Shown piece after piece: positions 4,681 through 29,800 of a stretch of 64,000 nt of DNA (within the stretch, counting starts at the first letter, position 1; every line of letters begins with the position of its first letter). The position numbers were made by a program, and so were the translations under genes. The notes under the pieces were generated by a model. It was not told where the DNA came from, made no database searches, and worked only from the letters and a program-made list of their open reading frames with translations. This DNA is from Eunapius fragilis (lineage: Eukaryota; Porifera; Demospongiae; Spongillida; Spongillidae), in contig OY811993.1 of the NCBI GenBank assembly GCA_963681505.1, positions 2,975,387 through 3,039,386 on the forward strand, in the 5' to 3' direction.

Positions 4681-5984
4681 TGGATACGCCACTGTATATA
4701 TACTACGTATACGTATGTGGGTCAAGCTATGGTTGTTACGCACATGTAGAACGCCTATAAGCACCTCAGATGTAACATACCTGAGTGAGTCACACAGTGG
4801 CTGAGCCCGTATAAAAACGTCCATTACGTCATACAAGTGGAAGGATTAATAATGGGGACATTCAGTACCTAACACCACTGAAGTGACTCTGGAACCTAGA
4901 AAAGTAGGGGAAAGAGTGTTTTATGGTATCTGGCCCCTTCCTCGATGATCTGGCTAACATTTGAATCACTGATTCTTACTGCAACTATCACAGATCCTGA
5001 GAAAAATGCACAAACATCTTGACAAAACCCAAATTTCTACACAATTTCTACATGTGTCTATGGACGTGTTGTTTTAGGGCCATGGAACCTACAGATAGAC
5101 CCTGAATTTTTTTGTTTCATCAATTAAGCATAGTGAAAGATGTTCTTAACTATATTTTTGACCGCCTTCCTTTTTTCTGACGATTCCTGATTTATACTGA
5201 ACAGAAATGCACTTTGTTCCATACATGTCAATGGACGCGTGCGCGGAAAATTAACGGACGTTTGCATTGACGCGTCAGGAATACGTAATGAGCGTCCGAA
5301 ATTTCTGGTAATGGCATACAATTATTGCTATCCTATATCGGCGGGCTTCTTCATTAATAAGCGTTGAAACAGACAAGCCCTTTGACAGTAATGCAACGCC
5401 AGGAGTGTTACAAAGAACATTGGGCATATACCACGAGAGATATACAAATCACTTCTGATGGAACAACTCCAGCTTAATAACTGGTAATAGGAGACGAGGA
5501 AAAGTTATCGAGGTTCCCTGCATCAACTGAGCTATATGCACGTTCAAAGAAGCTGGCGTAACAAAGCGTTGAATTACATTGCACAGACACTGACTCACAG
5601 CCATAACAGATATATATTGTGTGCATATGATTTCGTAAAATAATCAGTGACACGTTATCAATTATAGAGGAGTTTATTAACGAAGCGAATTTATATGTTA
5701 TTGAAGTGTTGAAATTGTAATTACACGCGATGATAATTTATGTTTTGTCTTGATTTTTGTATAGCATTGCTGTATTGTAACGGAGTGAAAAATGCAATTC
5801 CAATTCAGACTGTTTTGATTCAATGTGAAATAAAATGCAAAATGACCGCTGATGAATAGCGATTTCTCCATATGGTTACTGATGAGATTAAATGGCAATT
5901 CATCCATGCTGGTTTCTATTTGTTTGGAATGTACTCTCGCAGGTAACGGGTTACGGAATTCAAATTAATGTTTCATGTCCACAA
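4681..5984. other. No gene recognised
   Basis: AT-rich sequence with only short, unconvincing frames on either strand. I find no splice-bounded coding exon or repeat of note. Confidence 0.4.
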
Positions 5985-7555: not shown

Positions 7556-7640
7556 CACAGGGAAAAAAATCGTGTTCCGGACCTTGGGTTTTACCCTAGA
7601 AAAAATTCTCACCACGGTTTGTCAAGACTTACCAAGTCTT
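7556..7640 (+). repeat. Left terminal inverted repeat of transposon 1
   Basis: Begins CACAGGGAAAAAAATCGTG, continues through TTCCGGACCTTGGG and CCCTAGAAAAAA to GGTTTGTCAAGAC. It matches the reverse complement of the right end apart from the right-hand hairpin insertion and scattered substitutions. Confidence 0.88.
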
Positions 7641-7810
7641 ACCAAGATTTATCAGACACAACTTGCCAAGACTTAGCAAGAATCAACCAAGTTTTAGCAA
7701 GTCTTATCAAGACTTGACCAGAATTTGGAACAGAAATTTTAAGACTTAACAAGACCTAGCATGGTTTGCCAAGAATAAAGCAGGTGTGACTTATCAAGTC
7801 TTATCAAGGC
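7612..7810. repeat. Left subterminal repeat array of transposon 1
   Basis: About ten variants of CAAGACTTACCAAG / AAGTCTTATCAAG lie within 200 bp. The same motif family, in both orientations, recurs inside the right end at about 12163-12260. In plant CACTA elements such arrays are the binding sites of an element-encoded accessory protein; here the binding protein is unknown. Confidence 0.85.
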
Positions 7811-7889
7811 GTTCCTAGAATAAATAACATTATACTTGTCAATTCTTATTATAGCATGATAATAAGGTACAATTACACACATGTAGAAA

Positions 7890-9899
7890 GTTAACTGTCA
7901 CATTCTGAGTCACGGCACTTCTGATTGGCTTTTGAAACAAATGTTACCATGTTCCATTCGGTTTGGTTGTACCTCTTGTTCATGATATCTGAAAACCAAA
8001 AGATTTTTTTACACAATACATTTTATGTGCATTAAATTAACTTACCAATTATTCTTGAAACTTTAGTTGGATCAAGCACACCTCTTTCACTCTTCGTACT
8101 TTTAAACAGCAGGGAAGAAGACAATTCTGCTCTAGTAAAAAGCATGTCCAACAATTGCAATCCAAACAAGTATGGTGTTTTAGCTGGCAGATGAAGAACG
8201 TTAACTCCATTTACCTATAAGAGTGCAAGTTTATACCCTTTTTGTATGAAATAACCATGTACATGCTTGTATCTTCTTGTTTTATTGCAGAGCTGCATGG
8301 TATGCTATTGTCTGCTCTTCCTGAATTGGAAAATGCTGATTGTGTTGGGGGCGCTGGACTCAAGGCATGCCCATCCAATAGCTCTTTGAATCTGCTCATC
8401 ATCTCTATCTGGGACAGGCAAATCTCATTCTGTGTGTCACAAATCTGCTGCATGTCAGTCTAAGGCATCATTATGTAACTAGACTTTGCAAACAATTTGT
8501 AATGCACTGCACCTTCATCTCTCTCAACAAAGTTGCTATTTCTTCTTGATTCTGAGTATATATAAGAAAGTTTTGGTCAAATATTACTAACATTAATGCA
8601 TGCAACACACAAGGTTGCTACTTGTACCCACACATTCCAGCTCTTTACCTTAAGGAATAAAACAAAATAATATAACCATGCACAGTATGAAATGAACCTG
8701 CCTGATTTCACAGCTTTAGATAAAATATCCTTTCTGGATGTGTGAGGATCAACTACCGAATCCTTCAAATTGTAAAGACTTATAATAATAGATAGCTATA
8801 CAAAATAGCATGTAGCAGACCTTGGATTCCTCTCTGCTTGATGTTGATTGACGAAGCATTTGTTCACATATCATTAAGAAAATACTCAAAAACATTTGCT
8901 GCATACCAGTTTTGCTGATTTGGACTGAGTTTTCTTGAATTTCTATGTCATTTATTGAAATCCAGACATACAATACATTGTCACAGTTACAATTTGAGGA
9001 TTCATCTGTTAAAGCAAGAGAGTGAGCATTTAAGTTATGCAAAATAATTGTAACCTTTTAAGGATACAAATTGCGCTGGGTACACTTTTCCATGAGACTC
9101 GTAAAGAAGCTCTGCCCCTTTTGAGAGATCCATAACAGATTCCGTATCCTCTCTGTACAGGTCTCTGATTTTGGCAACCACTATCTTCCCAGTTTGAGAA
9201 CATTTCAGCACAACTGATCCTATTGTACGGATGCTTAATTATAAGTGATTGATCTATATTTATTCTTGCATCAGTGTTACTGATATTATAATTCCTAAAA
9301 CTGTCAAAGTAATCCGCTTTTATAGTCTGATTGGCCTTATTGCTAACTTACGCATATGAATGTATCGATCAGCCATGCACATATAACCTGCGCGTTTCTT
9401 TCTCTGCAAGATCAGCCAATTTTATCGGGTTGCGGTTAACACGCTACGTAACACCTCACGACCTAGCTGCATTTTGGCGCCAAAATGCAAACTTGATGTT
9501 TCAAGGTTCTTCCCTAGCACTATACATGTATATACATGCGCTAAAAGGATTCATGCTCGTAGCAGTGACTCAAAACATTCAAGCATCCCGCGTAGCGATT
9601 ACAATATTAATTGTATTTATTCCTCGCGGTCACACTAGCTAAAAACCACATACAGGTACCACATAATTAAGCCAAGGTGTCTTTCGTACGCGCCGCAGCT
9701 CAACTGATCTGCATTACCGTACGTGCTAGAATTGAGTAATTAGCGGCATGCTTCTGCATGTGCTAATTGTGTAGACAATGTGCACCTGCGCTTTTAACTT
9801 ACTGTTCTGGTCCAGTGTAGCTTCTTCCAGTTCTCCTTCGGATGCTTTCAGCGTGGGCTTCCTTTTTCTTTTCCCATTCGCTTCTTGATCAGTAGACAT
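7890..9899 (-). CDS. BEN-domain protein of transposon 1
   Basis: The BEN domain is a DNA- and chromatin-binding fold found mostly in animals. Supported exons on the minus strand: 9803-9899 (ATG start, Lys/Arg-rich N terminus), 9055-9219 (a block ending LLYESHGKVYPAQFVSL, resembling the corresponding block of the element 2 protein), 8907-9005, about 8287-8459 (predicted coiled coil, LSQIEMMSRFKELLDG), 8046-8214 and 7890-7989. The last two form the BEN domain: LQLLDMLFTRAEL, LDPTKVSRII, then KRYNQTEWN and a terminal KANQKCRD. Phases of the exons I could join agree; the exons between 8460 and 8906 are not resolved, so the exact protein is uncertain. The gene starts 97 bp from the divergent transposase ATG. 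The domain call is fairly secure; a role in transposition is inference. Confidence 0.7.
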
Positions 9900-9996
9900 T
9901 GTACTATACAGCTTAATATTGAACACGTGCATATGATATGGGATATGTTTTAATAAAAAATTATAATCTCTACTATTTGGCACGTGCGGCTGAAAA
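9900..9996. promoter_or_regulatory. Compact divergent promoter region of transposon 1
   Basis: Only 97 bp separate the ATG of the minus-strand BEN gene from the ATG of the plus-strand transposase gene, so the two must share upstream DNA. Two ACGTG-containing sites are present: ACACGTGC near 9923 and GGCACGTGCG near 9979. The latter has the E-box core CACGTG. No TATA box is clear. Confidence 0.45.
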
Positions 9997-11002
9997 ATGG
10001 AGAGACCAGAACAATTGCGTAGAGGCTATCGACAGTACTTAAGAGACCCTTTAGTACCAGCGCCTAGAACTACAATGTGGAATCATCAGAAAACAAAAAG
10101 GTATTGGATGGCTCATTGACCTTGTAGCTATAATTAATTTAATAAATTCGATTCATTAATTGTTACACGGTCGTACATATCCCACAAGTGCAAGTATGAA
10201 GCAATTACCCCCGGTGCAGACCTAAAGTACACCACTCAGTTGACAATGAAGATTTAACATCAGCTAGTCATCATGATAGTAGCGAATGCAGTACCAGTGA
10301 TCAAAGACCAGCAGATGCAGATCTGCCTGTAGCAATAGGTAAGTGTCTATAAATCAGTGTAGTTTTGGTTGTGATAACTGCATGTTACTACATTAAATAC
10401 TGGAATAATGGACAGCAATGAAGGGAATCAAGAGGCAATTGATGATGCATGTGTTCGAAGCTGAAAGAGGTGATGACATGTACACAAGTGGTGCAAGTGA
10501 TGGTGCAAGTGAATTGTCGAGGCCTGTGTCAGAAAATGACAGTGATTCTGAGGAAGAATATTCACATTCTTCATCAAGCGAACAAGAGGAAGAACCAATG
10601 AGCTGTACATTGAACATGGAAAGTATTCCAGAGTCTTCATTTGAGCCACTCTATAATAGTTCAACCGTGACAGTTTGTGGTGCTTATTTTTGCATCATGA
10701 AGTATGCAAAAATAGCTAAGCTGCCATACAAAGCTATTGAAGAATTGTTAAATCTGCTGCAAGTGATTTGCCCTTCATCAAACAAATTGCCCAAGAGTTT
10801 ACACCAACTAAAGAAATTTTTTCACAAATTCACCGCACCTTACACATGCTCTAAAGTTTGCAGTGAGTGTTCATCGCCTTGCCATGGAACAGCAAACTGT
10901 GAAAATTGCAGTTCAGAATATGGCAATATGATTCATATTTCCATTGCAAAATCAGTGCAAACCATAGTATCACGTGAGTCAACTTAGAAGATGCATATGT
11001 AT

Positions 11003-11028
11003 GGGGGGGGGGGGGGGGGGGGGGGGGG
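11003..11028. repeat. Poly-G run, 26 nt
   Basis: An uninterrupted G26 lies just after the N-terminal transposase exon, at the place where the transposase core is missing. Confidence 0.95.
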
Positions 11029-11092
11029 AAATGTGCATTTTTTTAAGTAAGAAAAGCTTTTAAATATCTCTTAAAAAATCAAAATCCCACCA

Positions 11093-11144
11093 CCATACAG
11101 GTAATTGGACTGAATTGGCCAATTCAGTCCAATTACCTGTATGG
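11093..11144. repeat. Perfect 52-bp palindrome
   Basis: Two 26-bp arms (CCATACAGGTAATTGGACTG... and its exact complement) meet at 11118/11119 with no spacer. It lies at one edge of an inverted piece of the transposase gene and probably marks a rearrangement breakpoint. Confidence 0.95.
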
Positions 11145-12162
11145 CCCAGCAATCTAACATAATTTGCAACATGGTTAAGTTGATGCATAATATAAGTACA
11201 GGTTTTATCGCCATAAAGATCTGGTACCATTTCATAAAACTCATTCCATTGTGGACTCATTCTGCATTTTGCACTGAGAGTAAAAACGGTCTATTGAAGC
11301 ATATGTACCATGGAAAAGGCAATGTATTAGAGCAATTAGTTTTCAACATTGACATCACACAGACACTGCAATTTTTTACATTCATCTTTGGCACAGCATG
11401 AAAATATGACAGTGATGCATTATTTGAGCTTGCACTTTCTACCATTTCACTCACATGCTTACATATGTGTTGGAGAGCATGCATATCTCTGTGGACCTGG
11501 GTATTCAAGTCCTACAACAGAAGAAGAAAGAAATCTCTTGAATTGTGGTGATAGTACTCAAAATATCTAAAGAATAACGTTCTCTACTGCTCAGACATTA
11601 TTACAGAAAAGGGAAAGCGCAACAGCTCAGTATGTGTATACATCAGTGATGAAGATATACTTATGTTTGGTTGCATTCAGTTTTTCATCAACACACCTTC
11701 ACCCAAAGCAGTAGTACAACCTTTATTAGTGTGCACCTCATGGTACAGCGATGGAGGCCCATGTTGCAGAGACAATCTAAAAGCATACAAGGAACTAGAC
11801 CTTTTTACAGCACTTGACATATTTATCAAAGTCCAACATTCTGCCACTTCCAGACTTAATTGTATTTTTCTTGATAAAATAGTTTCAAAAGCAGTCTTAG
11901 TTGAAGGCCATGATAATAATTTGTATGCAATCAGACAGCCCAATAAATATGATCATAACTAATATGTGACTACTTTCTTGTTCATGTATTATACTGCTTT
12001 CGTTTCTTATTGTTTGCTATATATTCTATGGTGTATGTCTGTTGTAAGTGTATGTGTATATAATCGATTAACAAGTATAAATCTGAGGACCAGTGACTCG
12101 TTATTTATTACGCTATGACGCGTCAAGGATACTAATGAGATTCATACATGGCCACAATTGTC

Positions 12163-12367
12163 TTAGCAAGACGTGATAAGACTTAATAAGTCTTGTCAAG
12201 ACCTTACAAAATCTTGACACGACTTCTAAGACTTGGTATGTCTTGGCAAACCGTTGCAAGATTTTTTTCTAGGGATTCCATCAAACGTATTCAAAGTGCC
12301 TAAGACAACATTGAATACATTTGATGGAACAGATCCCAAGGTCCGGAACACGATTTTTTTTCCTGTG
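12163..12367 (-). repeat. Right end of transposon 1: subterminal array and TIR
   Basis: An array of AAGACTTG-type motifs (12163-12260) is followed by the inverted repeat ending CACGATTTTTTTTCCTGTG at 12367. A hairpin at about 12280-12322 (CCATCAAACGTATTCAA and its near-complement) interrupts the repeat and is absent from the left arm. Confidence 0.85.
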
Positions 12368-12377
12368 TATACTACTG

Positions 12378-12490
12378 CCCAGCCAAAAATTCTTACTCGG
12401 ATCTTATAAGATCTTGTAAGATCATTATAAGATTTTAATAATGCGTAAGAATCCTGTAAGAAAAGAATAAGATCTTGTAAGACATGGAAG
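12378..12490 (+). repeat. Left TIR and subterminal array of transposon 2
   Basis: CCCAGCCAAAAATTCTTA is followed by variants of GATCTTATAAGATCTTGTAAG. The core AAGATCTT is itself a palindrome, so sites read the same on both strands. Confidence 0.85.
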
Positions 12491-12581
12491 TGTTCAATAA
12501 GACGATATGAATTGCATGTGTACAGAACATAGTGCATACATGAAATACATTAATGATAAGGCACAGGTAAAATAGCATTGG

Positions 12582-15500
12582 TCAATGGTGTTCATATTCG
12601 TTGGGCTGCATAATAACTAAATCTATCGGAGAATATTTCAAAGCAATATGAACGCAAACTCTTTTAATGTTGTCAACTGGAACAGCTATTGTCTTCTTTG
12701 TAACAGACACCTTCTTTACTTTGTGCATAAAGTTCTCAATATGGCGATGAGCACACAGAATACGATCATCACAGTCCAGTATTTTCTCATTTGTTTTATC
12801 CAAAACATCGCCGATTGCATACCAAACTTTGTTCACTATGCATAGACGACGAACAGATATAAAGAAAAGTTCATAACTGGTTTCATTTTCACTGTACCTT
12901 ACTTGACACACAGAGCTATTTCGTTTAGCTTTAATGTTTCGGATGTGTAACATTTGAGGCCCAACCTTCAGTCTGTTGATAGTTGGTACAGAATCAGATG
13001 GTACAATGTGAATGCTTCGAAGAGCCTTTATGTCATCAGCATCTAAATTTGCATATCGAACTTTCATCGGCTTGGAATAATTGGACTGTGAGAATGTGAT
13101 GTCATAGTTGTGCAAATAAATCTGTAAACGATCACTCTGGACATTAGTAGCATTCTGACGAAGATTTTGCCGAATAATAAGGGATCGACAAATTTGAGGC
13201 AGCACATTGCCAGTGCCATGACACTGCCTCAACAGAAATCCATTTAAGTTTTCGTATCCAAACGTTGAGTAGCACCACAGTGGGCCCCAATCCTTTACAA
13301 ATTGACATAAATGAATCACGCTGTGCAAATTTGCTGTGCAAATAATATTGGGATACAACTCAGGGGCTTGTTCATAAAATATTTTTAGATAGTCTGAAGC
13401 TAATTCAAGATCGTTGGTTGATATTGATGAATTAAGTAAAATGTGCATTGCACAAACCAGTAGACACCAGTGATTTATATACGCTTGTGGCAAAAAATCC
13501 TTCATAGCTGGTATTGAGTAATAAAGCAGCCATGCTCTAAATTCAGCTGCCTTCCAAAAACTTGAACATTCAATGCTCCTTGGGCTCCGTCGAAAAGCAT
13601 GTGGTGGCTTCATTCTAAGCAACCGTTTGTCAATCTCTTTCAAAAACTTTCTAATGTTGAATACATAAGTGCTGAACTCTGATCGAAACCAATACTTCAT
13701 AAATTGCTTTGCCAAACCTTCCAGTATTGCATGCATGTAGTCTGCAGGAATGCATAAAATGATATCAATGAAGTCAGATAAAATTGATGGTCCAAAAACT
13801 CCATACACCGGCTCCTCCATTTCAATTGCCATTGCTGCCCATAAAATAACATCACTGAAGATGCGTGGTTCATGCAAATCATTAGGCAGATAAATAGTCC
13901 TGTGCTGTACATATGTTCCTATGTCCAAGCAACAAGGACATCCATATTTTCCATTGAATTGTGTAAAATTCATTGCCATAGCCTTAGCAATGAGGTCGAA
14001 TGTTGCGAGTATTAATTTGGCTCTTAGTTTTTTATTTCCAACTTTTGTTCTAATTATTCTATCAGAATTTTCAAGTGCCTTAATTTTAGTCAGAATAGAT
14101 TTCAGTATCCTATTCATGTCAGGCTTGACTGAACCAAGCCACAATCCACAAACCAAAAGATATTGCACATTGTACCGTATTTCCGGTGGAAGGTTTGCAA
14201 TGCACAATTCTATAGGCCAGAGTTGAAGTCCTATTGGAAATAAACTCAACTTGTTTAATTTATGCAACAAGCTAAGAAAGATAATGTATACCTGATGATT
14301 TAAACACTGGGATTCCATCACTGCATAACATAAGCCCAATGTGTTCCGGTACAGATAGAAACTCGCCTGGCTGCATTAAGGCTCTGTACTTACTGCCGTC
14401 CTGAAGGTCATGCAGAATATCTGTATCCTGACGTCTAGTAAATGGGTACTGCAGTTGATCCCAGTTATCTACAAAATATTGTTAAAATACTTAATAAAAA
14501 ACATCACATAATATACCTTCACATATCTGTATTAGATGGTCTTCAAATGGAAGGATCGCAAAGTTACAGACACTTGAACCATTACATTGTTGCCTGCAAC
14601 ATTTCTTTTTATCCATGGGAATTTCTTCTAGGCAAACAGAACAGTATTGATAATGTTCTATTCCTTCTGTTATACCAAGGTCTTTTCTGAGTTTGTGGAT
14701 CGTTCTTGGGCAACAGTTATCAGGCAAGCAATGCAATTCAACAAGATCTAAAAGTTGCATTATGCTGCTTTCTGTTAAACGATGTGCAACAGCATATTGA
14801 TTGATTGCAAGGCAACTCTCGTTTCTGGTCAGAGCTGCTCCTGCATACAATGGCTCTATAGGATATAAACATAGCACTTTACTCATTGCATCTCAGTGCA
14901 TCAACTTACTCTGAGGCTGTGTAATTTGCTCTTCATCCTGAGAAGAATCTTCATCACCATCATTGACATCATCAACTACACTACCCCCACCAATGCCACC
15001 ACAATCTCCACCACAATCACCACCCTCATCATCACCCACATCACCTCCCCCAATACTACCATAATCACTACCACCATCACTACCACCATCATTACTACTA
15101 GAATCATCATCACTCCCCCTACTACCACCATCCCCACCACTACAATGCTCAATACTATGAGTCCCACTACAACTCCCTTCAGCAGTACCACCACCACCAC
15201 CACCACCATCTTCATCATCCCCATCATCTTCAATAGATTCAACACTAGTACTACTCCTCTCTGAGTGCAAGATCAACAGAATGGTTTTGTTTGTTAATGA
15301 AACATATTCAAATACGTAATCTTTAAACGAGCATACCTTCAAAACCCTCTCCTTCCAGGCCATCATGTACAAAATGCTCCTTTGTTTCTGTCATGTCACT
15401 TTGCTGTTGATCCACTATGGTAATTGTTTGCATGACATAATTAATCAATCAATATTACTTAAAACACAAATACAAAAGGCCAATGGAGAAATCAATAAGT

Positions 15501-15806
15501 TCTTTTATATTTATAGACAAGATAACAAATGCTTTTCAGTAATTCATACCATCTAAAGGGGCAATCTCAAAAACCTATACCATGTCTTGTACAGATGCAG
15601 ATGTTTCTGTATTGAGGGTAGGGTCTTATGAATTGAAGAATCAAACAAGGAAAAGAGCAGCACTACCAAATTTCATCTATAAGGTATGCTACAAAACATT
15701 TCTCGCCATATATAATTCATACCTGTTTCGGCAGCTCTCCAGTTATGCAACGTTTGGCGTGGAACAGGCATGAAAGGGTCACGACAGTACTGTTTTCTTC
15801 CCTTTG
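12582..15806 (-). CDS. Tnp2/CACTA-type transposase of transposon 2
   Basis: Cuts and joins the ends of the element. Minus-strand exons joined by GT-AG introns with agreeing phases: 15723-15806 (5' part, true start not found), 15581-15624, 15337-15403, 14910-15260 (Gly/Ser/Asp-rich), 14517-14855 (Cys-rich block), 14292-14468 and 12582-14230. Family signatures: LMLCSDGIPVFKSSG, then LWPIELCIANLPPEIRYN, LWLGSVKPDMN, a D-x-I-A-K-A segment before FNGKYGCPCC, ADYMHAILEG, FWKAAEFRAWLLYYS, NLHSVIHL and WGPLWCYSTFGYENLNG. These are the conserved blocks I know from Tnp2-like proteins, where two acidic residues in the SDG and D..A blocks plus a later Glu are the likely catalytic set. No stop or frameshift was seen in the joined exons. 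The 5' end and activity are the uncertain points. Confidence 0.82.
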
Positions 15807-16464
15807 CTGTGATTTAATATACATATATTCTTAAAACATCTTAAAGTTACATTTAAAAATGCACAGTACGGAATTAATTTATTCAGTGATTATTGATATG
15901 ACGAAGTAATAAATGTCAATGCTTATTCATTGTTTTGCATAGCGTAAGTATAAATTCATGTTTTTTACGTCAATCGCTGTAGCCTAATGCTATTAGATAA
16001 GTCGTTATGATCAAACGACATGTTTATGATCAAACGACATGTACGTGACAATTAATGTGAGGGAACTAATTAATGTAAATTTATCGGTGAAGTTTTCACC
16101 GCATACCGAATCTGTGGTTGATTTACTTACAGCAGATTTCGAAAAGCAACAAAATAACAGTCCACCGCGCATATAGCGCACGATTACTCGATCGATTGCA
16201 TATATTATATGACTATAAATGTACCTTTGAGAGATCCGCCGCTGAGTTGTTTTCTGTATCCAGACCTCCAAAGCGTAGTTCTAGGGATGGGTACCTTTGT
16301 CCTGAGATACTGCTTTCGTGAACTAGAACTAGATGTTTCTTCCGAGGTATCAATTTCTGCCATCGCCGTCAAATTGCATTCAATTTTGTGCACCGGAAAT
16401 CCGAAATTTTTATCTACAATTGCGTACTCTCACTCACACGTGTACTATTATATGTACGAACAAG
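15807..16464. promoter_or_regulatory. Divergent upstream region of transposon 2
   Basis: About 650 bp separate the first recognisable transposase exon (minus) from the BEN start codon (plus). It is AT-rich, contains a 20-bp direct repeat (GATCAAACGACATGT..., 16008-16042) and an ACACGTGT site just upstream of the BEN ATG. An unfound 5' exon of the transposase may lie here. No TATA box is assigned. Confidence 0.35.
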
Positions 16465-18772
16465 ATGAGCAAACGTGCAAGGAAATTACCGCCGCGCTAT
16501 AAGGACAATGCCTTGCCTCTAGATAATTGGACTGCGGAGACCAGTAAGTTATGCATATATGAATTCGTATCGATTGCCATGCATGCGGTGTATTCTTGCA
16601 TGCATGTGCGCGCGCATCATACGACCAGCAGTGATGTCAAGTTACATGTTGCGATGTTATATGTTGCGTGTGCCATGCGTTGCATGTACATGCATGAATA
16701 CGTGTTCTGCGCGGCCCCCACTAGCTTTCATGCGCGTCAAGTGACAATTGCGTGGACACAAGCAAACACAATTTTGACCGCGGCTATATGATTGTATTCT
16801 CAGTGAGTGTTTGTAACCACATGTACATCGATTGCCATGGCCATGGCTTGCCTCGCTATAGCATGCAGGCGCGACACATAATTAACACCGTTACTTTGTG
16901 ACAGTGTGATAATTAAAGTAAAGGTGCTAATTATGTGCCGTACACTTGTGTCAAGCACAGCAAACTTTAACTCCTAAACCATGCTAGTCCATTGCACTAC
17001 TTACTCTTTTAATGTGTAGCAATGTGGGATACGTACTCTTAAAATTTTTGTATTTTTTCGTCAAAAGAATGGTGTACAGTTGTTTGTGAACAAAGCAACA
17101 GGCAGTTCCTTTGCAAGTCTTCTGACTTGGAAGACAAAGAAATTGGACCAATGGCAGTACCTGACCTGGATGTAGGGAATGAGTATGTATGGAAGTCTTC
17201 CAAAGGGACATCTTATGATGTCAAACTGCTACGAGTCCATGGTAAATTCATCATGAGCATAAATTTTAATTTTATTGTCATACATAAATTGCAGACAAAA
17301 AACCAACCGATGGTGGGATGGTAAAGGAAAGTAGAGTGAGGCAAGAGGAGGATAGTCCTCCTTCATCGCCAGAGGATGGTTGTCATCAAGATTCTATTGT
17401 GAGGAAGAGGGTATGATGACAATTTGAATACCTACATTAAATCAAGTTCATTGCTTATAGACCACCACTGACAAACCTGACCAGGCTCAGAAGGTAATGT
17501 ACTGATGTAAACAAACTCAGTAGCCTTAATATTCTTGCTATTATTTATTCAAAATCTCAGGGTGTAAGATCTCTAGAGGCTAGCAGCAATCACGATTCAA
17601 CTGTGAGAAAGAAGGTATTATGGTACTTTAATGTCTACACTTAATTAAGTTCATTGCTTATAGACTACAACTGACCAACCTTACCAGGCTCAGAAGGTGT
17701 TGCACTTTTTTTATTGATGAATAAATATCACTTTATTCTTTCTACTGTTCAGCCTTCTTTTGGTTCAGAAGATGAATCACCTGTGAGGAAGAAGGTATGA
17801 TTATTTATAATGAAGTCAATTATCCACTGACAAAATGAGTACAAATGAGTATGGCACTTTTCCCTGACAGATTATGCCCTTACAAATTTATAGGCACTCA
17901 CTGTGGGCACTAAGTTAGCATTGCAATGATGCATGGGTCTATTGCATGCATACTAAATTTTGCCAATCAATGACTATCATGTCTAGCTAACAGTTAGCCA
18001 ATGCTTTTGAAAGAGTAATGTTGAAATAGCAATTTCATGCACATATGCAGAGAGGAGATGTGCATAATTCAGAAACAGAATTATCCACAGCTTTACAAAA
18101 CTTGGTAAGAGGAATACATATGCACCTTTATATTTATAATATCAAAATGCTCTTTTTTCCAATTCAGAAGTACTTGAGCACTATCAGCAATACACTGATA
18201 GATATACGAGACATGATGAAGGCGTATCTGGACGGCCAATCCAATAGTTCTGAAGTATTTATTTCAAGTTATAATAACTTGGGTTCATATTTTTTCACCT
18301 TTACTGCAGAGCCAACACCCCAGAAAGGCAGCAGGTTCTGAAGCAGATGAGCAATTCTTAACAGTAAGATTAAAATATATTTATACAATAATGTATTATT
18401 TATTAATCATTTACAGGAGGATGGGATGGATTTGCTCTCAATAAAAGCTGCAGATCCAGGAAAATATGCACTGAACCTAATGAACGCATTATTTACAGAT
18501 GAAGAAATGGGTTCCTCTTGTTACAAGAAGGGGCTAGGAAGCAAGTCAGAAAAACCACAGCTCTCACCAAAAAGGGTTAAACTAATGGAAGGTAAGGAAG
18601 ATTTGCACAGCTTATTAACTTAGTGTACAAAAATATTTTACAACACACAGAATGCATAGACAAGAAGTTCGGAAAGGGGACAGCTAACAAGCAACAACGT
18701 CAGATTCAACACTCGTGCAACCAGAAGTGTCTGGACATAAGATCAAAAAAACTGAAAATTCTCCAAAGCTAG
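16465..18772 (+). CDS. BEN-domain protein of transposon 2
   Basis: Twelve exons join in phase to 1011 nt (336 residues): 16465-16543, 17080-17241, 17295-17410, 17461-17493, 17561-17614, 17664-17696, 17753-17794, 18051-18104, 18168-18254, 18310-18363, 18417-18591 and 18651-18772. The N-terminal third has a block VGNEYVWKSSKGTSYDVKLL, comparable to one in the element 1 protein. The middle is built from duplicated mini-exons ending VRK(K/R) and TTTD.P.QAQK. A short predicted coiled coil follows (exon 9). Exons 11-12 form the BEN domain: YALNLMNALFTDEEM, SPKRVKLMEE and a terminal CNQKCLDIRSKKLK. BEN domains bind DNA. A role in binding the element's subterminal repeats is my inference. The complete phase agreement argues for a recently functional gene. 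Confidence 0.8.
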
Positions 18773-18834
18773 ATGTGTTATTATGGAAGTTTCCAATTAC
18801 AATCAAGCAAGATGCTATTATTCTTAAAAAGAGC

Positions 18835-19071
18835 TTATCCAAGATTTCATTATGATCCTACAAGATCTTGTGTAAGATCTTTTTATGATCGCACAGGATC
18901 TTGTGCAAGATCTTATTATGATCATACAAGATCTTGTGTAAGATCTTACAAGATTATGAAACAATCTTGTCCCATAATCTTGTAAGATCTTAGAAGATCT
19001 TGTTATAAGATCATATTATAATCTTAAATAAGATCTTAACTAAGATCTTAAATAAGAATTTTTGCCTGGGT
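18835..19071 (-). repeat. Right subterminal array and TIR of transposon 2
   Basis: Ten or so variants of ACAAGATCTTGTGTAAGATC and TAAGATCTTA lie head to tail, followed by TAAGAATTTTTGCCTGGG, the inverted copy of the left end. Confidence 0.85.
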
Positions 19072-19089
19072 GGGGGGGGGGGGGGGGGG
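19072..19089. repeat. Poly-G run, 18 nt
   Basis: Directly abuts the right end of transposon 2 and obscures its exact terminus. Confidence 0.9.
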
Positions 19090-20847: not shown

Positions 20848-23800
20848 ATGCAGGCTGCCTTAGCTAGCAATGAAGGCAATGAAGACTTGTGGAGCAGACC
20901 AGATCCTTATTTGCTTCCACCCCTTCCTGGCCAGACTGAGAAGACGGAATTTGATGTGAGGAGTTTAACATCAAGCTAAGTGTGCAGCCAGAAGTTTAAA
21001 TATCTCATTAGAAATTTAATATAGAATAGTGTGAAGTAGAATTAGAATTGTGCATGTTTTGCTATTAAAATAATTTGTGTTAAGGATACAATCTGGATAG
21101 CAGTTCATTTTTTTTGCAAACATATTCACATGGTACTTAAAGGGCAATAATCCTTATGCTGACTTGCTTTTGATATGTGTTATTGCATCAGTGTTGGTGT
21201 GTGCATATGGATGTGTGTTTTGATTTTTAGTGCGCATGTTGGTGTATGTGCAGGTGTTGTGTGTATGTGTAGTGTTGTGTGCATATGTGTTGTTGTGTGC
21301 ATATGTGTTGGTTTATACATGTGCAGTGATGTATTTGTGATGCCTTTTCCTTTTCTATTGTCCCTCTCCTTCTGCAGAGCCTGGATTATGACATCTGCTA
21401 CAATGTCCCATACAAGAAACAGCTTAAGTCCTACACCAAATTTGTACGTTTCTGTTAGCTAAAATCAACGGAAGAGGTTAGCAACATGTTTTTTAAATGT
21501 TGCATAACCAATAAATACATATGTCAACTTGCATGTATGACTAAAAAGCATCATACTAATTTCGATAACAAACAAAAAAAAACTTTCATGTTCATGTATC
21601 TTGTACACAGACGTACTTGCACATCAATGTGATGAGGTGGGTACTGGTGGCCATCATTGGTATCCTCACTGGGGTAGTTGCCTCCATCATAAGTGCTTCA
21701 ATGGAAAAGCTGGTGGATCTGAAGTACAGCCAGTTTGATAAAGGTATACACTACATTTGGCAGGCATGCCTATATTCAGTCAAAACCAGACATGCTGTCA
21801 TATGAACACACACTCATGTGCAAAACACATGCAAAAAGTGGTTTGAGTTCACAAAGCAAATAAGTACACCAATTTTTTGTTGCTAAAAAATATAGGTCTA
21901 TTTTAAATTCCTCTCTATTGACACCTGTAGTATATCATGCCATCCTTCCCAGCGGAGCTGTTAGTGCTGGTCTATTTGTGCTCTTGGGGTTCAATATCCT
22001 CTATGCTCTTGTGTCAGCAGTGGTATCTATATTTGAGGTCAGTTCATTGCTGCATAGTTATGTTCAAGTATACGTTTTGTGTGATGCAAATGGTTACTTT
22101 GCCTGCCTCGGTTTCTCCAATTTCAATATCATCTGGTTCTAGTTTACTCAGTCACCCTTTCTTTAAAATTAAACTTCACCTTTAGTCATGCATTCAACCA
22201 TACAGTCTTATGAGATCTTGTTCAAATATTATACTCGGTAATTGTGTGATTCTTGAATTAACATTGTAGCAATACTTACAGTTTCAAGTGGTAAACTTGA
22301 TTTTAAAGAAAGCAATGTACAATGGAATATCTTATTTATCTAGCATGAAACATTTACACTATTAACCATTAAACAGGCTTTCTCATGGTTTCACTGCATT
22401 TAGTTGCTGAGTTACACATGTTCTACATGTATATAAAACTGTTTAATATGCTGGACATTGCCAATATGCACAAACCATTGACTCCTTGCTGTCTGAAGTG
22501 TCAAATTTATGTGCAGCATATTTCTGATGCAAAAACATTATATACATTTGAAGCTGAAAGGAAAGAACAAGTTAAAAGTATTACCTTGTCCATTCCAAAT
22601 TAAGCTTCTCATTACTGCGTTCTGCGATAGTTTGCCTTCGGGATTCTTGATCTTCATACTATTGTCCATTTCAATTTTTTTTTGATAGGTCAATTGCCTC
22701 ATGTGTTTGGCTGGCTCCAAAACCTCCGTTTTTGTCAATTCCCTTCTTTTATGTCCTTTGTCAGTTTGCTTGTATTATTAAATTAAAAAAAACTATACAG
22801 GGTGAACTGAAACACAAATGAAAGCATCAAATAATTACATGCAAGCTAAAATTTAACATCTAGAGATGCGTTTGTGATGCCTCTTAGTATGATCAGGGTA
22901 CAAACATTATCTTTGCATCACCATTAAATGGATGAATACTGTGTAATGTCTCCAAATAATAATCAATTAACCCCCGTCATTATTACACATAACCCGATAT
23001 ATATAATACTGTTCAAGTGCTACTACTACACCTCCCTTTCTAATATCGATCGGGAGGTCTTGATATTCGTCCACTTCGAGTGCGTACTACTCCAGATTCT
23101 TGATCAACATCTCTTTCGCTCAGAGTGTCACTGGCTTCCTGTTCAACATCTGTGAACTGGAGCTTCTGGCTGTATTGTGACATCCAGTTTTTCGGGTGTG
23201 TCATGAGATACCTCACTCTGTAATGCTCCATTGCCAGAAGATCCCTCAGGTTGTGGTGTAAGGTCCTGTACATCATTGCCAGGATACCGAACTAAGTGTC
23301 GTCTGTTACGTCTCATTGTTCCACCTTGAACGGCAATTTCATATGATCGTGGCGCTAACTCCTTCACTACCACGCCAGTCGACCTATGGTCCGTAACCCG
23401 CACAGTATCTCCTGTATGTAATGGACTCAATAAGCGTGATCCATGATGGGAATCAAAATTCACTTTCAACTGCTGTCTGTGATACTCCTCCTTTTGCTTG
23501 AGCTCTTCCACATTTGGAACTTTCTGAGAAAGCAGGGAAGGATGGATAGGAAGTGTAGAACGGAGCTTCCTACACATTAAGAGTTCTGAAGGGCTATATC
23601 CATTCTTCAAAGGGCTTGTCCTATACGCAAGCAATGCCAAATAAGGATCCACTGACTTCTTTAGCAAGTTCTTCACTGTAGATACTGCCCGCTCAGCTTC
23701 ACCATTAGCTTGAGGAAACCTTGGACTACTTGTTACATGTGAAAATCCATATTCCTTAGAAAATGATGAGAATGAAGCTGCTGAAAACTGGGGTCCATTG

Positions 23801-26800
23801 TCTGAGACCACTGTCTCCGGGATGCCATGTCTGGCAAATATGGACTTCATGTGTAAAATAACACTGTCTATCTGCTGTAGTTGCTGAAAGCTTAGCAACT
23901 TCAATATATCTCGAGTAGTAGTCAACAACCAGAAGATATGATGATCCCTTCCATTCAAAAAGGTCTGTGCCAACTCTCTGCCATGGAAGATCGGGAAATG
24001 GTGTAGGAATGAGCGGCTCTGCCCTCTGAGTTCGTTCCTTACAACACACTGAACAGGACAGTACAAAATCTTCCAACTGTTTACTCATACCTGGCCACCA
24101 CACAGACTGCCGAGCCCTCTCTCTGCATTTCGTAACTCCCAGGTGCCCTTCAGGTAACTTGTGTAGAATGCCTGCTCGCAGAGTAGCTGGGATTACAAGT
24201 CGGCTTCCTCGCATTAGAAGATCTCCTTGAATAGTGAGCTCTCCAGAAACACACCAATAATGTTTAACAGGTCCTTTAAGTGTGTTCTTTGCAGGCCATC
24301 CATCTTTGCAATAGGCTTTAAGCTGTGTGCAAATAGGATCTCTTGTTTGGTGCTGTTGTATTTCCTCTAAACGTTTCTCACTAATTGGGAGGTTCTGCAT
24401 CACTATATTGACAAATGCATCAGTGACATCCTGCAATTCCTTGTCCATGGTCAAGGGCTGAGAAACTGGTGCGCGTGAGAGTGTATCGGCTGTAAATAAA
24501 CTCCTACCAGGTGAATGTATAATCACGTAGGTGTACCTCATGAGCCTCAGACGAAAGCGCAGAATCCTTGGTGGAAGGTCGTCCAAGCTTTTGCTTCCAA
24601 GAAGTGGTACTAAAGGTTTATGGTCAGTCTCTACGAGAAAGGGTATACCCAGCAAGTAGTCCTCAAAGCGCTCACATGCCCAGGTGACCGCAAGAGCCTC
24701 TTTTTCGATCTGTGCATACCGCTGTTCTGTCTCTGTCAGTGCTCTGGAAACAAATGCAACTGGTTTCCACTCTTCACTATGTTTCTGTAAAAGTACAGCA
24801 CCTAGGCCATATGAGGAGGCATCAGCTGAAATCATTGTGTCTAATGATGGACTGTACAAGGCTAACACTGGACTCTTACTAAGCTCCTTCTTCACTTGGT
24901 CAAAAGCATCTTTTTGTTTTTGCCCCCACACCCATTGCTTCTTCTTGCTCAGTAGGTCCCGCAGTGGCTTTGTCAGTTCTGCAAGTTTAGGTGAGAACTT
25001 GCTATGCTGGTTGACCATGCCCAGGAAACGTCGAATCTCACTAACATTGGTCGGCTCTGCCATGCAAGCAATGGCATTCACTTTCTCTGGATCTGGCTTA
25101 ATGCCATTCTGGTCAACTATTTGACCAAGAAACTTGACTGAGTTCTGTGAGAACACACATTTTTCATAGTTCAATGTAACCCTTGAATTCTGAATTCTTT
25201 CTAGGGTGTACTGCAAACGATTATCATGCTCACTTTGAGACCGTCCAAACACCAATATATCATCGATTAGGCACACAACTCCATCCAACCCCGCCAAAAT
25301 AGATGACATACGCTTCTGAAAATGCTCTGGAGCTGAAGTTATATCAAATGGCAGACGGTTAAAACAGAATCTGCCAAATGGTGAAATGAATGTTGTCAGT
25401 TTTGCTGACTCATGGTGCAAGCTCTATTTGCCAAAACCCTGAGTTGGCATCCAGCTTAGAGAACACCTTGGCACCCTCCAACTGTGCCAGTATTTGTTCA
25501 ACGCTACGAAGCAAGTGCCTTTCTCGACAAACACTCTCATTCAATTTAGTAAGATCTACACAAATACGAACCTGACCATTGCTCTTAGGAACTACTACTA
25601 AACCCGCACACCAATCAGTTGGCTCATCGACCTTACTAATCACCCCCATTGCTTCCATGCGCTCAAGTTCCTCTTTCACCTTTGGTAACAAAGGTATAGC
25701 TACCCTTCGTGGCACTGTCAGGGCAAATGGCTGTGCATTATCTTTTAGCTTGATGTGATACTGGCCCTGTAACTTCCCCAATCCTTGAAACAACTGAGGG
25801 AACAACTGAGTGAAATGGCTTTTTGCCTCCGCATCAATTACATCCACTTTCACCAAAAGACCCAATGCTTCAATTGCAGGACGACCTATCAATGGCATGT
25901 GCAGGTCTCGAACTACATACACTTCCTGCTTCACTTCTACTCCCCCATCTGTTCTTAAGGTTCCAATAAACTGACCAACAACATTCAGGCAATGTTGAGT
26001 TGGACCTCTCAATATCCTGGATGGCTTCACAAGTTGACCCTTAAAGTATCTTGTGTAATCCTGTGCAGGAATTACAGTAACATCAGCCCCTGTGTCTAGT
26101 TTAAATTCTATTAGCACTCCATTGAGAAAAAGGGAACTACACCATGTCTTACTACCTAACTTCTGTTGCCGGATCATTCCCACAAAGTAATCTCTCTTAA
26201 ATGTGCTAATTGCCAACACCTCTCCAGGTTTGGTCGTAGTCCTACAAACACTCTCAAAATGACCCTTTTTGGAACACTTGAAGCAGGTTGCATTACAAGC
26301 AGGGCATTGCTGACGTGAACTACATGAAGTTCTACCACACCAACTACATCTCCCCTTACCAGCACCTCCTCCACTATCTACTTGTGGCATATCCCTCCTA
26401 GCTTCCCTTCTAACCAGTGAGCTGCTTTGCCGTGCAATGCTATCAACCAGTGCTAGTCCCTCACCTTCCTTAGATCCTCTAACCACTTCTTGTTGTTGTT
26501 TGACCGTTTCTCGTTGCCTGGCAGTAGTTACCGCTTTATCCAACGTTAAATCTGGGTCCAACTGAAGTGTTTCTGACACCTTGCTGTCCAGCAGACCTAC
26601 AACTAGACGATCTCGAATCATTTCGTCGTGTAACGACCCATAACTGCAATGTTCTGCCAGACTATAAAGAGCTAACACGAAGGACTCAACCGATTCACCA
26701 TCTTGCTGGCTTCTCTTATTAAAGCGCGCCCTTTCAAATATTACATTTCGCCGCTTCACAAAGTGGTTCTCAAAATGCGTCTTAACCAGCTGATAGTCTT

Positions 26801-29800
26801 CGTATTCCTTTTTCGTCTCATCCAGTTTGAATGAGCGGAAAATGTCCTCTGCCGCATCTCCCATACAGTATAATAGAGCATTTACTTGGTTAGATTGAGG
26901 CTTGTCGGAGAGTCCAGATGTCTCTCGAAAGCGTTCGAATCTTCTAACCCATTTAGGCCATTCATCCGGCCGGCAAAAATTGAACTGTTCGGGTGGCGTA
27001 ACTTGAAAACTAGCCATCCCGCTTTACCGCTGCCACCATGTGTAATGTCTCCAAATAATAATCAATCAACCCCCGTCACGTGCCCACATTATTACACATA
27101 GCCCGATATATATAATACTGTTCAAGTGCTACTACTACAAGTACTATTATACAACATGCTCATTAACAGCTTACAATATTTTAGGTGCAACTTTCATACT
27201 ATTATAATTTTATTAGGGGTGATGCCTTACTATGCATACACAATGGATACATTTCATTACCAAAACTCTTTAAACCTCAGAAAAGCAACTGATGTGAAAG
27301 CAGCTTTCTATTTTATGAAACTTTATATGGAATCTAATACGATATTATTCCTAAATGTTCATAATTTGTAAACTTAGCAAAAGGATATCACAAAAAACGC
27401 CTCCAGCTATCATCAATGTAGCTCGCACTCATATGGCCAGTATGAATTCCATTAAATCAATGTGCCTTTGTTTTAAAAACTAGCCAGCTGGTGGACATGT
27501 TAGACGTTCTGACTTTCCAGTTTCAGAGCCCATAGTATGTCATAATACCACGTTTCACGGTACTTTGAAATTTGTCGCTATTTGAAATCACAAATATTAG
27601 GCAACGTTATGGTAGTTAAATGATGAGATAGTGATAATAAATTCATGTATGTGAGAATTTAATACACCTACACTAAGCTTCCCTGTCTCAGCTATTGCCA
27701 ATGCTCATCACCAATTTTTAAAGGCAAGTTCCATGATTTAAGTTAATTACGGCAGCCCTGCTATTGCAGACAATTATAGCAAGTCTTATTTAACACCAAT
27801 CTAACAAGCATAAAGCCACTCTCACCAAATGTTATGACAATTTGAGGCAATTTAATTCGGTATGCATTTTCCAATTGGGCTCAGCCCAGAAGTGGAGAGA
27901 GATACCATTGATTCTAACCCTTCTATTTATAGCCATTAGCTGGTGGCAGTGGAGTACCAGAACTTATGTGTTATTTGAATGGCGTTAAGGTAAAATGGTG
28001 GTGTCTGTGGTGTAATCATAATTGAAACAGTTTTATTTCTGTCAGATTCCTCGTATCATTCAGATTCAACCAGTGTTGGCTAAAGGGTTTGGCCTGGTGT
28101 TCAGTACAGCTGCTGGTATGATGTATATACAAGTGTTACCAATATTCTGCATCAAAATTTATTTTGGGCTGTGGGAAGCAGTTTAAGATTGGAATGGAAG
28201 TTGGAAGATTGTCTTTTGGAAAAAGGCCTAGCCTTTGAACAGAAGAGTTTTTGGTAGGGGGGGGGGGGGGGGGGGGGGCAATTATAAATGGGTTATGAGA
28301 AGTGTAATAGGAGACAGCAAGTGTGAGATGGAAAAGAATGGGAAGAGAGGAAGAGAGAACTGGAAAATGCAGGATTACATAGTTATTCTGCTGATGGCAA
28401 TGGTGCTGATAATTTTCCTTCAGGCTTCTTTGTAGGACCCGAGGGTCCATTACTGTACATGGGAGCTGTCATTGGATCAGGCGTATCTCAGGTTAGATGA
28501 TGGTTTGCTTTACATTGTATTATGTACCTTGAAGGGCTTCCTTCTGTGGCATATATTCTCAAGGTCTATTCTATGTTTTGTTAAATGCCATAAGATAAAT
28601 TCTCATGACCCTATCCATATCATGGACATATATGCAACCACGTGCTGTAGGTAGACACAAGGATATATGAGTTATTCCATTTACAGGGCATGTACATAGT
28701 CAGTAAGATCAATTCTTACTTTGTGTATGTGTGTTGTTATCAAGGAATTTCAGGTTAAAAGGTGTACTTTAAATTGAATTACTTCTGCTTCTAAAGCTTC
28801 AAAGTTTTCTGCCATTTTTGGTCAAACACCCTATCCCCTATCCCTACTTCCGATCTGACCGGTGAGTGGAGGATGGTGAGTAATACATTTGATAAGAATA
28901 ATATGCCTTCAACCTCCAGTGAGAAGAGGGACTTTGTATCCAGTGGGGCTGCAGCTGGTGTAGCTGGTGAGTTGGCAGATTGTTAAAGGGACAATAGGAA
29001 AGTCAAGATTCATGTTGAAAGAAAATGTATTTCTTGCATTTGCAGCTGCCTTTGGTGCTCCAATTGGAGGGACTCTCTTCAGTTTGGAGGAAGGGTCCTC
29101 ATTCTGGAACCAGAGTTTAACCTGGAGGACGGTATAATGACATGCTTCTATTCATGCATACTTGGTTCACTTGTGTATATCATATCTACATTTTCAACTG
29201 CTTGGGATCCACTTCTTCCAGTTATTCTGTTCACTCTGTGCTACATTCACCTTTAACTTTGGCACATCAATATACAAAAACATACCTGGTCAACTTGGGC
29301 AGTCTGGTCTTGTGAATTTTGGTACTGATGTAGCCGTAAGTGGCAGCAGTGTTACAAATGGGGCCATTGCATTATTATGGTACTTCATATGCTGTAGGTG
29401 CAATTAAATGAGAAATGGAAGGCACAACACCTGATAATATTCATTGTGATGGGAGTGATCGGTGGAATGATGGGAGCACTGTTCAATAGTCTAAACACCC
29501 ACATTGCAAATTACCGTTTAAAGTTTCTAGCAAAAAAGAAGCACTACAAATGGTGGAGGTAAGCACAAAACAGCTTGTTCTGTTGATGAAAATGAGGAAA
29601 AACAAATTTGTCTGCTTTCTCTAAACCATGGGAAAATCCTTCGCATCTTTGGAAGATTGACAGCATTTCATAGCTTAGTATAGCACTGAGGATATGTGCA
29701 ATGTCAATTTCTAAATGTCTGAAGCAACTGACCTACCCAAAACACAGGACACTGACAACATTAGAGGGTGTAGCATGAAATCCTCCACTACTTCAGCAGC

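Follow-up and report, generated by a model that had tools for sequence, protein, structure and literature searches.

Results and Discussion

Two transposons with divergent gene pairs

In the 64,000-nucleotide stretch of the Eunapius fragilis genome analysed here (contig OY811993.1, positions 2,975,387 to 3,039,386; hereafter the window) two transposons were found, and each of them combines a gene for a Tnp2-type transposase with a gene for a BEN-domain protein, the two being transcribed in opposite directions from a short shared region. Such a pair in each element had been proposed in an earlier note on this DNA, and the start codons indeed lie 97 and 101 bp apart (Table 1). Element 2 is an intact transposon and the representative of what we call family 2. 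Element 1 belongs to a second family (family 1) and is damaged, having lost the core of its transposase and carrying a broken BEN gene.

The terminal repeats of element 2 start with CCC. Its transposase frame is open and the protein matches PF02992 (Transposase_21) with 29.5 bits (cut-off 28.6); the DDE, C2C and H3H motifs, named after PMC12730594, were recognised in it by eye. The twelve exons of the BEN gene join without frame conflict, as the earlier note had reported, although they add up to 1023 nt instead of 1011 nt. Searching the spliced protein with PF10523 gave 30.0 bits (cut-off 23.2) and thereby placed a BEN domain at 18417–18772, where it had been suspected.

We identified three further full copies of family 2 (C20, C19 and C1), which are 98% identical to element 2. 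Their coding sequences are mutually identical for both genes, and they lie on three contigs beside the duplications TA, TC and CT; AA was also seen among the other family-2 copies, and C6 has no duplication. Identical coding sequence next to different duplications indicates that one two-gene unit moved recently. Both frames and all modelled splice sites are intact in four of the six family-2 copies compared, the BEN gene of element 2 being among the reading frames kept in this way, while C10 and C6 are decayed. Between element 2 and C10 the BEN gene differs by 17 synonymous and 16 non-synonymous changes (209 and 787 sites), resulting in a ratio of non-synonymous to synonymous rates (dN/dS) of 0.24; the comparison with C20 gave 0.35 for BEN (7 changes) and 0.22 for the transposase.

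Table 1: Positions of the two transposons and their parts in the window.
Feature	Position	Strand	Basis or remark
Element 2, complete TRC/CACTA-like transposon of family 2, 6693 bp	12378..19070		terminal repeats and further copies
Left terminal inverted repeat of element 2, 18 nt, CCCAGCCAAAAATTCTTA	12378..12395	+	94% complementary to 19053-19070
Right terminal inverted repeat of element 2, 18 nt	19053..19070	+	
2-bp target duplication TG of element 2	left 12376..12377, right 19071-19072		
Tnp2 transposase gene of element 2, 7 exons, 913 aa	12582..16363	-	PF02992 match
Exons of the element 2 transposase	16363-16295, 15801-15723, 15414-15337, 15260-14910, 14855-14517, 14468-14292, 14230-12582	-	
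Divergent intergenic region of element 2, 101 bp between start codons	16364..16464		CACGTG at 16437
BEN gene of element 2, 12 exons, 1023 nt, 340 aa	16465..18772	+	splice model
Exon 2 of the element 2 BEN gene, conserved N-terminal domain	17068..17241	+	predicted to be beta-rich
BEN domain, first part (exon 11)	18417..18591	+	makes up residues 259-327 after splicing, together with exon 12
BEN domain, last part (exon 12)	18651..18772	+	NQKC.D stretch common to families 1 and 2
Right subterminal array of element 2, 9 AAGATCTT palindromes	18862..19049		2 more at 12408 and 12469
Element 1, internally deleted copy of family 1	7594..12274		
Element 1 BEN gene, disrupted in the window copy	7891..9899	-	
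Divergent intergenic region of element 1, 97 bp between start codons	9900..9996		CACGTG at 9924 and 9981
Remnant of the element 1 transposase gene, lacking the catalytic core	9997..11962	+	
Left subterminal array of element 1, 7 AAGWCTT palindromes	7624..7802		3 more at 12178, 12188 and 12228; internal one at 8775
Separate miniature inverted-repeat transposable element (MITE) into which element 1 inserted	left part 7556..7593, right part 12275-12367		

Classification and known relatives

Both elements belong to the animal TRC branch of the CACTA/EnSpm-like superfamily, a placement based on the CCC termini, the 2-bp duplications and the Transposase_21 domain. All 17 copies examined have CCC at the left end, and 2-bp target duplications were read by eye in 14 of them (the exceptions are E2_C6, E1_win and E1_C1b). 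Family 1 contributes the transposase of its copy C6, which matches PF02992 with 58.9 bits. The pattern of the CMCT clade, D, D and E, the second D and the E enclosing C(2)C and H(3–4)H, was recognised by eye in the protein sequences. Plant-type CACTA elements make 3-bp target duplications, and with CCC termini and 2-bp duplications instead of CACTA termini and 3 bp we ruled out a plant-type (En/Spm) element; the CACTA/En-Spm label of the earlier note therefore holds in the broad superfamily sense but not in the strict plant sense. Duplications of 3 bp are also given for fungal EnSpm (PMC12730594). Plavaka was rejected as well, the family-1 transposase reaching 20.5 bits against PF18759 with its cut-off of 26.3.

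The closest parallels are found among animal TRC elements. SmTRC1 has a Transposase_21 domain like the present elements, and relatives including Spongebob/EnSpm-4N1_HM share repeats starting with CCC and 2-bp duplications, the terminal repeats being CCCTAG.. in Tribolium, CCCAGTCAAC in Aedes and CCCAGCCAAC.. in Hydra (PMC1636069; PMC4298943). The accessible text of these two papers does not mention a BEN gene, unlike the elements described here, and the further proteins of SmTRC1 (PrA and others) are described there as products of alternative splicing and not of a divergent gene. The plant En/Spm elements start with CACTA, produce TnpA by alternative splicing and have TnpA-like proteins that are little alike, whereas here a divergent gene encodes a protein with a recognised DNA-binding domain; the two-protein logic of maize TnpA and TnpD is comparable, with the role of subterminal-repeat binder being a proposal in our case (PMC2613891). 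Fungal Plavaka/EnSpm elements with TET/JBP genes likewise join a CMCT-clade transposase to an extra chromatin-related gene, but this accessory gene is a different one and their termini (TGT.., CATCA.., CAC..) are unlike those reported here (PMC12730594). No description of a divergent BEN gene in such transposons was found in the literature searched.

Pairing of Tnp2 and BEN in the genome

To the genome (219 Mb, 24 contigs) we applied the Pfam Transposase_21 profile, scoring 150 of 305 candidates, and the BEN domains of both families, scoring 150 of 194 and 150 of 175 candidates, so that the listed BEN loci are a lower bound. The BEN loci include weak matches (E values up to 10 and 1); second-exon rows of loci already listed were omitted from the pairing count and BEN matches at most 1.5 kb apart on one strand were merged. 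A BEN locus was found within 7.5 kb of 20 of the 150 scored Tnp2 matches, compared to a mean of 1.7 and a maximum of 7 when 177 BEN loci were placed at random in 1000 trials, a null model that ignores the kinship of family copies and uses approximate sizes for a few contigs. In 17 of these pairs the nearest BEN is divergent (random mean 0.43, maximum 4) and in 3 it is convergent, and the convergent C5:6726385 also has a divergent BEN partner at a distance of 5.2 kb (C5:6731613). Of the pairs, C9:2776015/2774823 and C1:10618349/10612470 have the convergent layout.

The pairs are spread over several lineages. Family 1 is represented by C13, C6 and C1:17356796, with part of BEN deleted in the last, and family 3, a sister of family 2, has BEN in the same layout in three of four near-full transposase copies (C4, C12 and C18). 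Two groups defined by their range on the Transposase_21 profile and not by a tree, X (45/46–159) and Y (19–178), have seven of eight (C5 counted) and four of four scored Tnp2 matches paired with BEN, and further pairs are located at C6:5948429, C2:6841266, C4:6907488 and C18:2554616. The divergent BEN/Tnp2 pair thus recurs in several Tnp2 lineages. That the pairing is a property of the lineage and not a chance capture, as claimed before, applies to some Tnp2 lineages, in which it recurs far more often than under random placement, but not to all of them. The BEN protein itself is a conserved two-domain protein: for 41 of 50 loci with the N-terminal domain a BEN exon follows on the same strand, 1.2–2.5 kb further downstream (0.06 on average and at most 2 in the null).

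Subterminal arrays

The subterminal repeats of three BEN families turned out to be arrays of one inverted half-site, AAG/CTT, repeated about once per DNA turn and separated by family-specific spacers, the forms in question being AAGATCTT, AAGWCTT and CTTATAAG/AAGASTCTT. Family 1 shows the spacing AAG-1-CTT-3 with a period of 10 bp, which is the same in two copies that are 71% identical. In family 2 it is AAG-2-CTT followed by 4 or 2, giving a period of 12 or 10 bp, and in family 3 CTT-2-AAG-3, mostly 11 bp, again preserved in a copy with a transposase region 82% identical.

In its two 320-bp ends element 2 has 11 AAGATCTT sites against about 0.04 expected from shuffling; it has none internally, and no other site was found in the 64-kb window outside these ends. 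AAGWCTT occurs 13 times in the ends of the family-1 copies C13 and C6 and twice internally, the window copy having 10 in its ends and one internal site. The palindrome form of each of these two families is absent from the ends of the other (shuffles give 0.01–0.17). Genome-wide we counted 449 AAGATCTT pairs 2–30 bp apart versus 11 for the reversed pattern, showing that such arrays are widespread; many of them probably lie in derivatives without BEN. A tandem array at L020:3217-3545 and its copies was found beside the family-3 transposase. It also accompanies many BEN loci at which this transposase has no match and of which several have stops in the BEN exon; these loci are probably transposase-less derivatives.

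Proposed role of the BEN protein

Taking these data together we consider it fairly probable that the BEN protein acts as the end-binding partner of Tnp2, as a counterpart of maize TnpA, which recognises subterminal repeats and is needed together with TnpD (PMC2613891). A DNA-binding role appears strengthened by the phased palindromic arrays in combination with the published binding of palindromes by BEN dimers: the BEN domain of Insv (Insensitive) sits as a dimer on the 8-bp palindrome CCAATTGG (PMC6317261), the BEN domain of NAC1 selects the palindromic ACATGT (PMC7764960), and the last helix of the domain, alpha-5, reads the major groove (PMC11472053). In families 1 and 2 the last exons have the NQKC.D stretch in common, which would fall into this recognition helix, as judged from its C-terminal position. 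In the proposed model a BEN dimer would bind the AAG/CTT palindromes via the C-terminal helix, line one face of the DNA along the subterminal array, bring the two element ends together and recruit the Tnp2 protein for cutting at the CCC termini. Transcription may be regulated as well, through binding either to the ends or to the short promoter that both genes share; such regulation is reported for maize TnpA. It is possible, and here we are more tentative, that the BEN protein of each family reads the one half-site at its own spacing in helically phased arrays and that array and protein evolve together, forming a spacing code through which related families stay separate.

Several observations weigh against this model. 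No listed BEN lies within 7.5 kb of 130 of the 150 scored Tnp2 matches, the best-scoring ones included, so that BEN marks some Tnp2 lineages and not all, Tnp2 elements can exist without it and the idea that both genes always co-occur had to be given up. Even in the BEN-bearing families there are Tnp2 copies without a listed BEN, namely C1:21386991 (family 3), C3:7202565 (group X) and C1:14544615 (family 1), the matches of the last omitting the BEN half of the query. The signs of constraint are also mixed: comparisons with the decayed family-2 copy C6 gave a dN/dS of 0.47–0.87 for BEN, against 0.24–0.35 with C10 and C20, and those with decayed copies 0.56–1.39 for the transposase. The gene models of both elements were predicted from genomic sequence alone, and the spliced family-1 protein from C13 stays just below the PF10523 cut-off (22.2 versus 23.2 bits). 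As the BEN domains of families 1 and 2 are 30% identical, a single half-site for both is an assumption, and NAC2, unlike NAC1, is reported to bind a non-palindromic site (PMC7764960). The spacing comparison comprises three families, with family 3 represented by the tandem array on the transposase side, short of the terminus itself, and the arrays could instead be bound by the transposase itself or by a host protein.

Among the alternatives, a BEN protein that works outside the transposition complex and mainly controls the transcription or chromatin of the element, as a repressor, insulator or anti-silencing factor, roles which BEN proteins have in animals, seems unlikely to us but is the most probable. 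The start codons of the two genes are separated by a single region of about 100 bp, and the palindrome CACGTG, present 14 times in the window, is found in both divergent regions, where two of the three copies in element 1 (the remaining one is at 10971) and the only one in element 2 are located. Insensitive-type BEN proteins are boundary factors (PMC6317261), and the TET/JBP genes of fungal elements from this clade are thought to counter silencing (PMC12730594). However, the AAG/CTT arrays are found at both ends and neither AAGATCTT nor AAGWCTT occurs in the shared promoters (9900–9996 and 16364–16464), a position that suits the recognition of ends better.

We regard it as improbable that array binding is left to the Tnp2 transposase alone, with BEN helping at a different step, for instance the choice of target, even if the present results do not separate the array binder from BEN and the element 2 transposase has a long N-terminal region with no assigned role, since the inverted palindromic sites fit the known binding mode of BEN and the array binder of plant elements is the second protein (PMC2613891). 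Least probable is a BEN gene that is a passenger or a captured host gene with no role for the element, as could be read from the many Tnp2 matches without a nearby BEN (130 of 150), the many BEN loci without a scored Tnp2 match nearby and the existence of other BEN genes in the genome, because the divergent layout is repeated in several lineages, dN/dS of BEN is 0.24–0.35 between element 2 and C10 or C20, and three recent copies do not differ from one another in either gene.

If BEN is indeed the end-binding partner, a BEN gene together with regularly spaced inverted repeats at the ends points to a way in which such transposons could tell their own termini, and a transposon source would be added to the pool of animal BEN genes. 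The subterminal-binding proteins of plant CACTA elements share little sequence, and the pace of their co-evolution with the repeats was named as a later question (PMC2613891). In the present case DNA complexes have been solved for the domain family of the candidate binder, the sites are short palindromes, and several sister lineages with different spacings are present in one genome, making specificity and co-evolution directly testable.

Element 1 and other observations

The ends of element 1 had been set too far outside, as the outer 33-nt repeat (7556–7588/12335–12367) belongs to a separate MITE. This repeat also occurs without element 1 as a short MITE of about 145–172 bp where both ends are listed. 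The MITE ends are CACAGG..CCTGTG, and the one copy read (L069) has GTG at both flanks, corresponding to CAC ends and a 3-bp duplication. The termini of family 1 are CCCTAG at 7594 and CTAGGG at 12274, and its copies listed with a left end begin at query positions 35–39, the right ends being at 4719–4722.

The window copy of element 1 has lost about 1.09 kb including the catalytic core of the transposase, which is present in C13, C6 and C1:17355115. Near the site of this deletion we observed a perfect 26-nt inverted repeat without spacer (11093–11144) and a long G run (around 11008–11028). The BEN gene, kept intact in element 2 as the earlier note stated, has 14- and 8-nt deletions in element 1 compared to the nine of ten other copies in which this region is present, and shows no long open frame under the family-1 model (92 aa); its last two exons still match PF10523 with 24.5 bits (cut-off 23.2). 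In the family-1 copies C13 and C6 a BEN model of ten exons and 304 aa is open, one 13-nt exon being uncertain. Seven family-1 derivatives of 3 kb have no transposase, and in six of them BEN exon 1 has the same frameshift of +4 nt. They have probably multiplied in trans, since the spread of frameshifted derivatives without a transposase is expected of products acting in trans.

The open frames at 23143–27023 of the window (minus strand) resemble those of a gag-pol retrotransposon, with parts for a protease, a reverse transcriptase and an integrase. Elsewhere in the genome C11:7578973, C1:13449352 and C1:23923413 (L070–L072) carry BEN domains in single open frames of 145–151 aa, which are unlike the transposon type and probably belong to host genes or other elements. 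Finally, seven same-strand BEN-type matches without internal stops, 46–56% identical to the family-1 BEN domain, lie within about 133 kb at C20:4700113-4832934 and are possibly a host gene cluster derived from a transposon gene.

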